From contig NZ_CP027806.1 in assembly GCF_003353065.1 (NCBI RefSeq), positions 3,306,501 through 3,370,500 of the forward strand: DNA of 64,000 nucleotides, written 5' to 3'. Below are positions 48,548-56,529 of this stretch, piece by piece (the stretch's first letter is position 1; each line of letters begins with the position of its first letter). The notes under the pieces are model-generated. The model made no database searches and was not told where the DNA came from. It saw nothing but the letters and a program-made list of their open reading frames with translations. Origin of the DNA: Cyclonatronum proteinivorum (lineage in GTDB: Bacteria > Bacteroidota > Rhodothermia > Balneolales > Cyclonatronaceae). The position numbers and the translations under genes are program-made.

Positions 48548-48717
48548 AAATCTTATAAATGATTGCGTTTATCAGACCAATGCGGGTTAGCTACCGCGCA
48601 CAGGAATCGGACGGGGATGGTAATTTGTGAAGGCCTGACATTTGATTCAAGCTGAGATTTCCCAAACAGAAACAGCCGCCCATGAACCCCGCTGCCCGCA
48701 ATGCTGTTGTGGGGCAC

Positions 48718-50232
48718 ATGAATTCAAAACCTACCATTGGCGTCGTCTGGTTCAAGCGTGACCTGCGGCTGAGTGATCATAAAGCCCTGAAGGAAGCCAT
48801 CGCTTCCGGGCTTCCGCTGTTGCTCATCCGGCTTTTCGAGCCGGAGATTGCGTCACATGCTCCGGATTTCGACCTGCGACACTGGCGCTTTGTGCGGCAG
48901 AGCATAAGCGACCTTAACCTCAGGCTGAAACAGCTTCCAAAACAGGATCAGGGCACAGCGGCCATCCCCCTAAACGAACACCCCAAAATTCACGTGCTGC
49001 GGCAAAACGCCGTACCCGCTTTTGAGATGCTCGCGGAACATTTTGATCTTAAAGCGGTGTGGAGTTACGAAGAAACCGGCACAGACATCACGTATCAGCG
49101 GGATATCCGGATGGGGAAGTGGTTCCGGGCGCGGGGCGTTGCCTGGCATGAGTTTCAGAGTAACGGGGTGCAGCGGGCGATTAAAGACAGGGACGGCTGG
49201 ACCAAAGCCTGGTACGGCAATATGGGCGCCCCAACGGACGAGCCGGAGCTTGGACGCCTTCGCAACGTTGCCATCCCGGAGAAGCTGTTAGAAAAGCTTC
49301 GGGGCGTACCTTTTGATGATGTGTTTTACGAAAATCCCGTGCAGTTTCAGATGGGCGGGGTTGCGAAAGCGCAGCGCGTACTGGACTCCTTCGTGAAAAG
49401 CCGTGCCGCGGGCTATAACCGCGACATCTCCAAACCGCTGGAAAGCCGCGAATCATGCAGCCGGCTTTCGCCCTATCTGACGTGGGGCAATCTCAGTGTG
49501 CGTCAGGTGTATCAGGCCGCAAAGGCGGGGAAAGAAACCTACGGCAACAAAAAAGGGCTCAACAGCATGATGTCCCGGCTGCGCTGGCACTGCCATTTTA
49601 TTCAGAAGTTCGAGACCGAGCCGCGTATTGAGTTTGAGAATACCAATCGCGGCTTCGACGATATCCGCACCGAAACCGACGCTGCGCTGATCGAAGCATG
49701 GCAAACCGGCACGACCGGCTTCCCCCTTGTGGATGCGTGCATGCGCTGCGTTACGCTGACCGGCTATCTCAACTTCCGCATGCGGGCCATGCTTGCTTCG
49801 GTGCTGACACACCATTTCTGGCAGCCGTGGCGGGCGGGCGCGCCCTGGCTTGGGCGTCAGTTTCTGGACTTCGAACCGGGCATTCACTACACGCAGTTTC
49901 AGATGCAGGCCGGAACGCAGGGGATTAACACCATCCGCATTTACAACCCGGTTAAGCAATCGCAGGAGCACGACCCGGAAGGCGTGTTCATCAGGGAGTG
50001 GGTGCCCGAACTTGAAAAAGTGCCGTCAAAGCTGATTCATGAACCCTGGAACATCTCCGAAATGGAACAGCAAATGATGGGCTTCCGGCTTGGCGAGGAC
50101 TATCCGCGACCGGTCATCAAAGACCTGAAGCGAAGCTACCGGGAAGCTTCTTCCAAATTGTGGTCAAAAAAATCCGATCCTGTGGTGAAGCGCGAAAACG
50201 AGCGCATTGTTCGCATGCACGTACGCCGCTGA
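48718..50232 (+). CDS. Cryptochrome/photolyase-family flavoprotein
   Basis: About 504 residues. The N-terminal photolyase domain opens at [20 protein letters not shown], with [16 protein letters not shown] nearby. The FAD-binding half includes [56 protein letters not shown] and [20 protein letters not shown], then [23 protein letters not shown] 48718 has GTGGGG just upstream; ATG 48682 would add 12 residues. It should bind FAD and either repair pyrimidine dimers with blue light or sense light; sequence alone does not decide. It is distinct from the DASH-type protein encoded at 52247. Confidence 0.93.
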
Positions 50233-50421: not shown

Positions 50422-50682
50422 ATGAAAAACAAAAAGCTCACCCTGTATTTGCCGGAAGAAGTCATCAGTCGGGCCAAGGCGCATGCGCGTGAAGAAGGGG
50501 TCTCCCTATCGGGCATGGTTGCCGATTTTCTAATCAAAGAAACCGCGATGTATGCAACAAATGATGATGAAATTTCAACGATTGAAGAAGAATTTGTGCC
50601 CTTTTGCGGGGTCATTGGTCTGCCCGACCCAACGGATGAACGCGAACTTGCGGCTTTGCTTCGCGAAGAAAAACACCGGTAG
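50422..50682 (+). CDS. Ribbon-helix-helix-type antitoxin
   Basis: 86 residues. The N-terminal half (KNKKLTLYLPEEVISRAKAH, AREEGVSLSGMVADFLIKE) has the strand-helix-helix pattern of the RHH/DUF6364-like antitoxins. The acidic C-terminal half (STIEEEFVPFCGVIGLPDPT) would wrap around the toxin. It lies 5 bases upstream of the PIN toxin gene and directly after the palindromic operator at 50385. Confidence 0.85.
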   Translation: MKNKKLTLYLPEEVISRAKAHAREEGVSLSGMVADFLIKETAMYATNDDEISTIEEEFVPFCGVIGLPDPTDERELAALLREEKHR

Positions 50683-50687
50683 CGGGA

Positions 50688-51137
50688 ATGGCGGCTTCAT
50701 CTCATCCCGAAAAAGCGCCGCGCCTTTTTCTCGATACAAACATACTTGTTGACCTGTTGGCCGAGCGGCACCCGCATTTTGAACCCGCGCTGTCACTGAT
50801 GCGTCAGGCACGTTCGGGCAATGTCAGGCTCTGCACATCCGCGCTCTCAATCACGACCTGTTGGTATTTGGTAAGCCGGCAGCGGGACAGCGCAACCGCC
50901 CTCGACGCAATAAGAGCCATGACCCGGTTTGTGGAGATCATTCCGGTGAGTGAGCGGGCCGTACTGCAGGCGCTGCAGTCTGTTTTTAGCGATTTTGAAG
51001 ATGCCGTGCAATACTTTGCAGCGCTTGAAGCCGGAGACACAGCCTTTATCATTACCCGGAACGTGCGGGATTTCCGGAAGTCGGTCATCCCCGTTTGCAG
51101 CGCCCGCGATTATCCGGAAGCAAGCCAATCACGGTAA
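50688..51137 (+). CDS. PIN-domain toxin (VapC-like RNase)
   Basis: 149 residues. PIN acidic positions are visible: Asp in [20 protein letters not shown], the central Asp in [13 protein letters not shown] and the late [14 protein letters not shown]. Such proteins cut RNA, often tRNA or rRNA, in a Mg2+-dependent way. The preceding RHH gene is its probable antitoxin. The pair sits between two photolyase genes and next to two transposon copies, a common place for mobile modules. Confidence 0.88.
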
Positions 51138-51198: not shown

Positions 51199-51339
51199 GT
51201 GTCGTATAAAGGGAATAAATCTTACCTGCCATCCAAAACCTGCCCCAGCTGCGGACGTCCCTTTACCTGGCGGAAAAAATGGGAGAAAAACTGGGATTCC
51301 GTGAAATATTGCAGCGAGAAATGCAGGCGAAAAAAATGA
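51199..51339 (+). CDS. DUF2256 zinc-ribbon micro-protein (46 aa)
   Basis: Translation from GTG 51199-51201 gives [19 protein letters not shown], then [20 protein letters not shown] and KCRRKK. Four cysteines (CPSC...YCSEKC) form a zinc ribbon, and the WRKKWEKxWDxVKYCSxxCR pattern is that of DUF2256. Proteins of this family are often encoded next to cryptochrome/photolyase genes (from memory, not searched), matching its place 1 kb after one and 0.9 kb before another. No biochemical role is known to me. Confidence 0.85.
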
Positions 51340-51404: not shown

Positions 51405-51486
51405 TTATTTGAAAACGAGTGCCCAAAAGCTGTACAACAGCCAGGCGTTCATGCACAAAAACAGCAATGAAGGCAAGGCAAATTTA
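51405..51486 (-). pseudogene. Detached C-terminal piece of the DoxX gene
   Basis: Reading the minus strand leftward from the MITE-like element gives KFALPSLLFLCMNAWLLY plus eight more residues (SFWALVFK) and a TAA at 51405-51407. This is the typical last membrane helix of DoxX-like proteins. It joins the frame of the upstream DoxX part exactly when the 228-bp element and one TA are removed. It has no start of its own, so it is now probably untranslated. Confidence 0.82.
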
Positions 51487-51714
51487 ACCCGCATTATTCA
51501 CAATTAAACAGGATTTATTTGCTAAGTGTTAGTTTAAATTTGGCTTAGCAAAAAACACCGGTAGCCCAAATTTGAGTGCGGTGTAAAAACTGCGAAATTT
51601 CCCCGCTGGCTGCGTTGAAGCTGAAAACTCATGCTCAGGGTACTGAGGTACCCTTCCGCTGAGTTTTCAGCTTCGCCTTGCCAGCAAGAAAATTTCTTGG
51701 TGAATAATGCGGGT
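51487..51714 (-). mobile_element. MITE-like non-autonomous element, full copy (228 bp), inside a DoxX gene
   Basis: 15-bp terminal inverted repeats (ACCCGCATTATTCAC), flanking TA duplications at 51485-51486 and 51715-51716, and an internal palindrome at 51594-51696 (arms include GAAGCTGAAAACTCA). It has the same length as, and high similarity to, 56302-56529, in the opposite orientation. No coding capacity. TA targets suggest mobilisation by an IS630/Tc1-mariner-type transposase encoded elsewhere. Confidence 0.93.
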
Positions 51715-51991
51715 TAACACTGTCTTTTATGCGCATTCGCACAACAAAAGCCACAAACATCATCACCGTGAAGCCCGCAGCGGAAAGAAGACCGACAAAA
51801 GGGATATACAGGCCGGTCAGGAGTCCGGCAACACCAAACAGCTGCAGCGCGCCGGTAATTTTTCGTTGGGTTTCGGTTAACCCAAAGCGCCTAAACTCTG
51901 CAATCATCCGTCTTGAATTGAGCGACTGAAACCCGTAAAACAGGAAAAACAGCGCGTTGAGAATGAGTAAAAACTGAAAAAAAACGGACAA
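51635..51991 (-). CDS. DoxX-like membrane protein truncated by a transposable element
   Basis: 118 residues as now encoded. Residues 1-91 are a DoxX-like three-helix membrane part (FFQFLLILNALFFLFYGFQS; GALQLFGVAGLLTGLYIPF; LLSAAGFTVMMFVAFVVRMR). From Val92 on, the reading frame runs through the MITE-like element (NPHYSPRNFLAGKAKLKTQ...) to a stop within it. The native fourth helix lies beyond the element (51405-51486). The uninterrupted protein would also be about 118 residues. Function is probably impaired. DoxX proteins are small quinone-related or redox membrane proteins. Confidence 0.85.
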   Translation of the reverse strand: MSVFFQFLLILNALFFLFYGFQSLNSRRMIAEFRRFGLTETQRKITGALQLFGVAGLLTGLYIPFVGLLSAAGFTVMMFVAFVVRMRIKDSVNPHYSPRNFLAGKAKLKTQRKGTSVP

Positions 51992-52246
51992 TGGGAGAAG
52001 TTATATTTTTGAACCTGAAGAAAGCTGACGACCCAACGCCCGGATGGCGCATACGTCAGTATTGTGCAGCCGAAAAGCTTTTATTTACCGCGTTTCGTTC
52101 AGACGCCAAACGGCATTCGTTTCCGTAACTCTTGGTGCACGCTTGTTGTCGTTGCATGAAATTTGAATCCGCGCAATGATTTGCGGCGGCTTCATGTTTG
52201 GCAGTTCAAATTCAAAACAAACTTATCCCCGAAAATACTGCCATCC

Positions 52247-53692
52247 ATGAACACCCTCCTCTGGTTCCGTAACGATCTGCGGCTGCATGACAACGAAGCC
52301 CTTCACATCGCCCTCGAACAGGCCGAAACCCTGATTCCGGTCTATATTTTTGACCCGCGTCAGTTTGGCCGGACAGACGAAGTCCGCTTCCCGAAAACCG
52401 GTCCCTTCCGACTGCGCTTCTTGCTGGACAGCCTCTCGGATTTACGCGCACGACTGCGCGAAAAAGGCTCGGACCTGATCCTGTTGCAGGGGAAACCGGA
52501 AGCGCTCATCCCGGAGCTGTGTCGCAAGCTGGATATCGGACTTGTGACCTATCACGAAGAAGCTACCTTCGAAGAAACGCAGGTTGAAGACGTCCTTGAC
52601 GACGCCCTCGAAGCCCTGGGGGTGGAAGTCGATTCCGCCTGGGGCGCGACGCTCTACCATGTGGATGACCTGCCGATGGATATCGAAAAGTTGCCCGATG
52701 TGTTCACCGCTTTTCGCAAAAAAGCCGAGAAATTCAGCGAAGTCCGTGCGCTGTTTGAAACACCCTCTACGCTGCCGCCGCTGCCTGCCGGACATCCCGA
52801 AGCGGGCGATTTCCCCGATTCCGAGTTCCTTGGCATAGCGCCGGATTCACCATCTGAAAAATCAGTACTGCCCTTTGAAGGCGGCGAGACCGCTGCGCTG
52901 AAGCGGCTCGAAACATATTTTTGGGATCAGGATCTCCTCCGTAAATACAAGGAAACCCGCAACGGCATGCTGGGTGCGGACTATTCTTCCAAATTCTCCC
53001 CCTGGCTGGCTAACGGTACGATCTCGCCCCGCTACATCTATTTTGAAGTGAAGCGCTATGAAAAAGAGCGGAAGAAAAACAGCTCAACCTACTGGCTGGT
53101 CTTTGAACTGATCTGGCGGGACTATTTCCGCTTCATCGCGCTCAAACATGGCCGTAAGTTATTCTGGGAATCCGGCATTAAGGGCAAGCGATATGCCTGG
53201 AGCCGGAATATGGGAGACTTTGAAAAATGGGTCAATGCGGAAACCGGGATTCCGATGATTGACGCCAACATGCGCGAGCTGAACGAGACGGGCTTCATGA
53301 GCAACCGGGGCCGGCAAAATGTGGCGAGCTTCCTGGCCAAATGTCTGAACATCGACTGGCGCTGGGGTGCCGAGTATTTTGAGTCGCTGTTGCTTGATTA
53401 TGATGTGTGCAGCAACTGGGGCAATTGGGCCTACAACAGCGGTGTCGGCAACGATCCGCGCGACCGCTACTTCAACATTGTGGGTCAGGGCAAGCGCTAC
53501 GACGCCAAAGGCGACTACATCCGGCACTGGCTTCCGGAGCTCGCGAACGTGCCCGACGACTACATTCACGAGCCGCACCGCATGAGCGTAGCCCAACAGC
53601 GTGAAGCCGGCGTAGAGCTTGGTAACGACTACCCCTTCCCGATGATCAGCCTGGAAAAAGCCTACCGCGAAATTGAGAAGCGCGGGGATTGA
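52247..53692 (+). CDS. CRY-DASH-type photolyase/cryptochrome
   Basis: 481 residues from ATG 52247 (MNTLLWFRNDLRLHDNEALH); the frame is open upstream but that part is not family-like. The DASH hallmark YDVCSNWGNWAYNSGVGNDP is present, together with GADYSSKFSPWLANGTISPR, WRDYFRFIALKHG, GIPMIDANMRELNETGFMSN and NIVGQGKRYDAKGDYIRHWL. It binds FAD and usually MTHF, and repairs cyclobutane dimers, mainly in single-stranded or loop DNA, under blue light. A second photolyase-family gene lies 2 kb upstream, so the organism is equipped for strong light. Confidence 0.97.
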   Translation: MNTLLWFRNDLRLHDNEALHIALEQAETLIPVYIFDPRQFGRTDEVRFPKTGPFRLRFLLDSLSDLRARLREKGSDLILLQGKPEALIPELCRKLDIGLVTYHEEATFEETQVEDVLDDALEALGVEVDSAWGATLYHVDDLPMDIEKLPDVFTAFRKKAEKFSEVRALFETPSTLPPLPAGHPEAGDFPDSEFLGIAPDSPSEKSVLPFEGGETAALKRLETYFWDQDLLRKYKETRNGMLGADYSSKFSPWLANGTISPRYIYFEVKRYEKERKKNSSTYWLVFELIWRDYFRFIALKHGRKLFWESGIKGKRYAWSRNMGDFEKWVNAETGIPMIDANMRELNETGFMSNRGRQNVASFLAKCLNIDWRWGAEYFESLLLDYDVCSNWGNWAYNSGVGNDPRDRYFNIVGQGKRYDAKGDYIRHWLPELANVPDDYIHEPHRMSVAQQREAGVELGNDYPFPMISLEKAYREIEKRGD

Positions 53693-53705: not shown

Positions 53706-53776
53706 ACCCGCATTATTCACCAAGAAATTTTTTTGCTGGCAAGGCGAAGCTGAAAACTTATGCTCAGGGTGCTTAG
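53706..53776 (+). mobile_element. MITE-like element, truncated copy
   Basis: Begins with the intact terminus ACCCGCATTATTCACCAAGA after a TA, 11 bp after the CRY-DASH stop. After about 50 bases it follows the opposite arm of the palindrome (GAAAACTTATGCTCAGGG), so the central loop is inverted relative to the end. The second half of the element is missing. Confidence 0.85.
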
Positions 53777-56301: not shown

Positions 56302-56529
56302 ACCCGCATTATTCACCAAGAAATTTTTTTGCTGGCAAGGCGAAGCTGAAAACTCAGCGGAAGAGTACCTAAGTACTCTGAGCATGAGTTTTCAGCTTCA
56401 ACGCCGCCAGCGGGAAAATTTCGCAGCCTTTACACCATACTCAAATTCGGGCTACTGGTGTTGTTCTCTAAGATAAACTTAAACAAACACTTAGATAATA
56501 AATTCAATTTAATTGTGAATAATGCGGGT
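56302..56529 (+). mobile_element. MITE-like non-autonomous element, full copy (228 bp)
   Basis: Same 15-bp terminal inverted repeats and length as 51487-51714, flanked by TA at 56300-56301 and 56530-56531. The internal palindrome spans 56320-56422. It inserted into the stop codon of the 5-formyl-THF cyclo-ligase gene, and the duplicated TA plus the element's first base rebuild a TAA, so the gene stayed intact. Confidence 0.93.

Follow-up and report, generated by a model that had tools for sequence, protein, structure and literature searches.

The window analysed here, a stretch of 64,000 nucleotides from Cyclonatronum proteinivorum, contains a gene of the DoxX family on the minus strand (51405-51991) that is interrupted by foreign DNA. 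The locus raises the questions of what this DNA is, where exactly its borders lie and what kind of transposase could have brought it there. Read from the sequence, the gene starts with 92 native codons (MSVFF...RIKDSV) and then enters the inserted element, where the frame today continues into a foreign tail of 26 residues and a new stop. Across the element the minus strand carries the 26 distal codons, with their TAA stop at 51405-51407. The two parts of the gene are:

51714 to 51991, minus strand: first 92 codons of the DoxX_2 gene, its proximal part (the start is uncertain, TTG at 51991 being assumed)
51405 to 51487, minus strand: distal part of the same gene, with 26 codons and the TAA stop, split off by the element (from orthologue alignment)

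In-silico excision of 230 bases (51488-51713 plus one TTAA) leaves 357 bases with a frame of 118 residues that ends in TAA; the sequence expected at the locus without the element is GTGTTAAATTTG. The protein read as it stands matches the Pfam family DoxX_2 (PF13564) with 56.8 bits (E 2.7e-15) and the rejoined protein with 60.5 bits (E 1.9e-16, residues 8-103, curated cut-off 26.3), the end of the match moving from position 89 to 99 of the 103 of the profile, that is, past the junction. Aligned with the orthologues that ten genomes of the order encode, the rejoined protein showed no break across the junction, at 49-63% identity (best E 4e-42). Besides, the distal 26 residues aligned gap-free with six intact orthologues, with 8-10 of the 26 positions identical, while the foreign tail has 5 of 26 residues in common with the rejoined sequence. 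The orthologous genes of the related genomes are free of any interruption. An earlier note on this DNA had proposed that an element interrupts the DoxX gene and that its excision restores the frame, and both points are confirmed, although the native codons number 92 and not 91. No second lesion was seen in the gene. In place of its last 26 residues, which are predicted to form a membrane helix, the protein would carry a foreign tail, so that the gene has most likely been inactivated. As gene disruption this is an ordinary, well-supported MITE insertion.

The element reads CCCGCATTATTCAC...GTGAATAATGCGGG and is non-coding, without a transposase. Its parts, and the two other copies present in the window, are as follows:

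51488 to 51713, minus strand (that of the conserved hairpin and A half): MITE of 226 bp with perfect 14-bp terminal inverted repeats, CCCGCATTATTCAC (from comparison of 78 copies)
51484 to 51487, no strand: target duplication, copy 1, TTAA (from flank comparison)
51714 to 51717, no strand: target duplication, copy 2, TTAA (from flank comparison)
51589 to 51713, minus strand: conserved A half, a long hairpin that MITEs throughout the order have in common and that shows compensatory changes
51488 to 51588, minus strand: B half, whose first 60-80 bases beside the terminus occur only in copies of the own genome (from an order-wide search)
56303 to 56528, plus strand: second complete MITE copy, TTAA on both sides
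53707 to 53772, plus strand: truncated MITE copy with the A end only, just behind a photolyase gene

The copy in the DoxX gene does not by itself decide between a duplication of TA and one of TTAA, because excision of the element plus either of them gives the same empty site. The earlier note had relied on this excision to fix the borders; the empty site that it obtained stands, but the borders that it derived from TA, with an element of 228 bp, were wrong. Borders were measured instead on 78 complete copies of the own genome, comparing the 4-mers directly outside CCCGCATTATTCAC...GTGAATAATGCGGG. An exact duplication of 4 bp was found in 57 of the 78 (0.3 expected by chance), whereas exact matches of 2 bp were found in none, and of 3 bp and 5 bp in one copy each. 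The 57 matching 4-mers were mostly TTAA (23) and CTAA (20), followed by TTAG (6), ATAG (2) and, once each, GTAG, CTAG, TCAG, CTAC, ATAA and TTAT. Since the bases to the left and right of the TA change together from copy to copy, they belong to the target sequence and not to the element. The target duplication is therefore 4 bp long with the consensus NTAN (TTAA at the DoxX site), and the element measures 226 bp (51488-51713). This length matters because TA would suggest the IS630/Tc1-mariner type, while 4-bp NTAN together with these ends suggests IS1380.

The exact 14-base terminus was found 161 times in the genome (one contig, 4.29 Mb), and the reversed control pattern not once. There are about a hundred copies of the MITE; most of the complete ones have 226 bp, a second class has some 254 bp and there are a few short forms. 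The class of ~254 bp (e.g., L037 and L354) carries an extra internal GC-rich hairpin of ~28 bp. Short, non-coding, bounded by terminal inverted repeats and target duplications and present in many copies at unrelated sites, the element has the features by which a MITE is recognized. Those half-sites without an exact partner that were read in search of a long autonomous element turned out to be mutated, truncated or IS-interrupted MITEs, and in the plasmid records searched nothing matched the element. The insertions avoid genes: an open frame of at least 100 codons covers 10 of the 41 empty sites but 557 of the 638 control positions taken from these flanks. Other genes are possibly interrupted as well, the empty sites of L019, L031, L009 and L010 lying in frames of 506, 291, 255 and 182 codons, respectively. 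The insertion in the DoxX gene is recent relative to the family, as the earlier note had also held, and belongs among the younger copies, given that its nearest relative is 98.7% identical (the median nearest-neighbour identity among copies is 93%), that its termini and duplication are perfect and that the gene has no other lesion.

Which transposase could move such an element was examined by mapping the transposases of the own genome (PF01609, PF13701 and PF13546) and determining the ends of the multicopy groups. None of these multicopy groups (IS1380-like, IS701-like and other DDE) has the ends of the MITE. In the same order we found a complete IS1380 element, CTAG|CCTGCATTTCTCAC...1702 bp...GTGAGAAATGCAGG|CTAG (L238), whose transposase was recognized by PF13701 (E 1.2e-133) and by the NCBIfam IS1380 model (E 2.7e-104). 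Its terminus recurs unchanged in MITEs of related genomes of the order (CCTGCATTTCTCACCAAGAAAT), and these MITEs likewise carry 4-bp NTAN duplications. The protein encoded by L265, a Balneolaceae record, is 100% identical to that of L239 from a genome of the order, which makes Balneolales the most likely order. Public genomes, when scanned, yielded another 80 IS1380 loci, of which 39 were examined; both ends, CCYGNATTNNTCAY or close variants, lie beside a 4-bp duplication in 18 of them, belonging to Bacteroidota, Pseudomonadota, Myxococcota and others. The ends nearest to those of the MITE come from Phaeodactylibacter (CCCGGATTATTCAC, with TTAG twice) and from Aquimarina, where one element has CCCGCATTATTCAT on its right and TTAA in duplicate. 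The MITE terminus is of the same type as these nearest ends, with 13 of 14 bases identical, and the full-length IS1380 elements and the MITE alike make 4-bp NTAN duplications.

It is on the type of ends and the 4-bp NTAN duplication taken together that we place the MITE in the IS1380 type. Four results count against this: neither the own genome nor the others scanned yielded an IS1380 element having exactly CCCGCATTATTCAC as its two ends, the resident IS1380 elements differ in their ends and in their longer, irregular duplications, the abundance of MITEs in the order is not linked to a strong IS1380 match, and the interior of the MITE, outside the ends, is not significantly similar to IS1380 elements. 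On balance we are confident that the interruption is a 226-bp non-autonomous DNA transposon (MITE) with IS1380-type ends. As judged from the sequences, transposition was most likely carried out in trans by a DDE transposase of the IS1380 family: this enzyme would bind the 14-bp terminal repeats and move the MITE, which would insert at the TTAA between codons 92 and 93 of the DoxX_2 gene, duplicating those 4 bp and leaving a protein that presumably exchanges its last 26 residues, the predicted membrane helix, for the foreign tail. This would connect a multicopy bacterial MITE with IS1380. In the literature searched, no MITE of this family came up, nor did any paper containing the terminus.

The best surviving alternative is that the resident IS1380-like elements, six distant copies with the ends CCTRAATCCGTGA, move the MITE by tolerating divergent ends. 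They are multicopy, their transposase belongs to the same family (NCBIfam IS1380, 291 bits) and their ends also start with CC and keep A6, T7, T11 and A13. But only about 6-7 of the 14 positions agree with the MITE ends, and their flanks are irregular, with duplications of 5-7 bp or none instead of 4-bp NTAN, so that we consider this improbable. Origin from another family that makes 4-bp duplications, such as IS701, is more improbable still: the genome does encode IS701-like (DDE_5) transposases and the duplications of IS701 are exactly 4 bp (PMC2266710), but the resident IS701-like ends (CTGGAGTTTGGCT; AACTCAACTTTCGCACTTCG) are unlike those of the MITE and the published end signature, ---YACT, does not fit it even though the duplication length does (PMC2266710), whereas IS1380 fits on both. 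A MITE of the IS630/Tc1-mariner type with the TA duplication claimed by the earlier note, with which the empty site of the DoxX copy is compatible, is refuted for practical purposes by the 0 of 78 copies with a 2-bp match, by flanks that change in step around the TA (CTAA, TTAG, GTAG, CTAG...) and by one TCAG copy that has no TA at all.

A MITE usually shares its genome with a matching autonomous element, although this is not required for membership of the IS1380 type. In the single contig of the own genome no IS1380 transposase of close type was detected. With only the six distant IS1380 copies, which have different ends, the MITE looks orphaned in this genome, where about a hundred non-autonomous copies exist without a detectable matching transposase. 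MITE-rich genomes such as G039, G422 and G450 are also without a strong IS1380 match, and over 128 genomes of the order there was no significant link between MITE abundance and such a match (p 0.07 when any MITE counts, 0.27 when ten or more are required). Among the relatives, incomplete assemblies, from which repeats drop out, are a caveat to this comparison that does not touch the own genome. The simplest account would be past visits of IS1380 elements followed by their loss, or a transposase supplied from plasmids.

The A half, 125 nt from one terminus, is common to MITEs in 31 of the 128 genomes of the order, with 69-89% identity over long matches, while the B half (query bases 1-62) had no match outside the own genome among the genomes of the order searched. 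As a single strand the A half forms a long hairpin, with a folding energy of -67.6 kcal/mol and a z of -9.7. In an alignment of 20 sequences, 20 of the 37 pairs were altered on both sides and 95% of the cells were paired, values far lower in shuffled and slid alignments; the copies are related and p values for these statistics are nominal. On the hairpin strand G-U pairs prevail over A-C (about 53 vs 5, counted from the table of 20 sequences), and the single changes in copies of the own genome give 36 G-U vs 13 A-C. A DNA palindrome corrected from arm to arm is not expected to favour one strand, so that selection may act on a single-stranded form, either RNA or DNA. That the hairpin functions as an RNA or single-stranded DNA structure under strand-specific selection, kept up by compensatory changes across the order and aiding the MITE to persist and multiply without a matching transposase, is a more demanding proposal that we regard as rather doubtful. 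We also considered a strand-specific terminator of neighbouring genes, a role that is not supported since the orientation of the hairpin to them is unbiased (17 sense, 20 antisense). An Rfam search of the element gave nothing near the gathering score, and a promoter and terminator scan of it nothing beyond shuffles. Of more interest than the disruption of one gene is the orphan family that spans the order and conserves a hairpin; on this hairpin one can test whether such structures of MITEs are selected as nucleic acids or come about as by-products when the elements arise.

Other elements and genes were observed around the MITEs. An IS701-like element (transposase of ~478 codons, ends CTGGAGTTTGGCT) lies within the central hairpin of MITE copies L044 and L153 (near 385557 and 327753 of the own genome), and its other copies (L181-L186) are in GC-rich palindromes such as GTGCCCCTACAGGGCAC, from which the element seems to target hairpins. 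A DDE element of 299 codons is located inside one end of a resident IS1380 element at two places (L120/L134 and L121/L138, near 755000 and 4233000 of the own genome), as if the nested pair had moved or been duplicated together. In the window, all on the plus strand, a CopG-like/DUF6364 protein is followed by a PIN-domain protein beside the DoxX gene (50422-51137), likely a type II toxin-antitoxin pair, and a small DUF2256 zinc-finger-like protein (51205-51339) is encoded between two genes of the photolyase/cryptochrome family (48682-50232 and 52163-53692).

Among known systems, the MITE resembles IS1380 (PF13701, NCBIfam NF033539) in its CCYGNATTNNTCAY-type terminal repeats and 4-bp NTAN duplications, and differs in having 226 bp without a transposase, instead of ~1.6-1.75 kb, and no similarity past the ends. 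The piggyBac superfamily, in whose phylogeny IS1380 was used as outgroup, has CCC-type ends and mostly TTAA duplications with an occasional TTAG or CTAA (PMC10813416). Those are, however, animal elements with near-strict TTAA, which here makes up 23 of the 57 matching duplications, and membership of piggyBac was rejected. The IS982-derived MITE of Cardinium is also lineage-specific, spread in a Bacteroidota genome and found interrupting genes, although its parental IS, of the IS982 family, is in the same genome (PMC9769881). The Chunjie MITE of Geobacter uraniireducens, with 235 bp, is similar to the element in the DoxX gene, according to a review (PMC10969869), in its size, its dozens of copies, its size variants and partial copies and its interruption of a functional locus.
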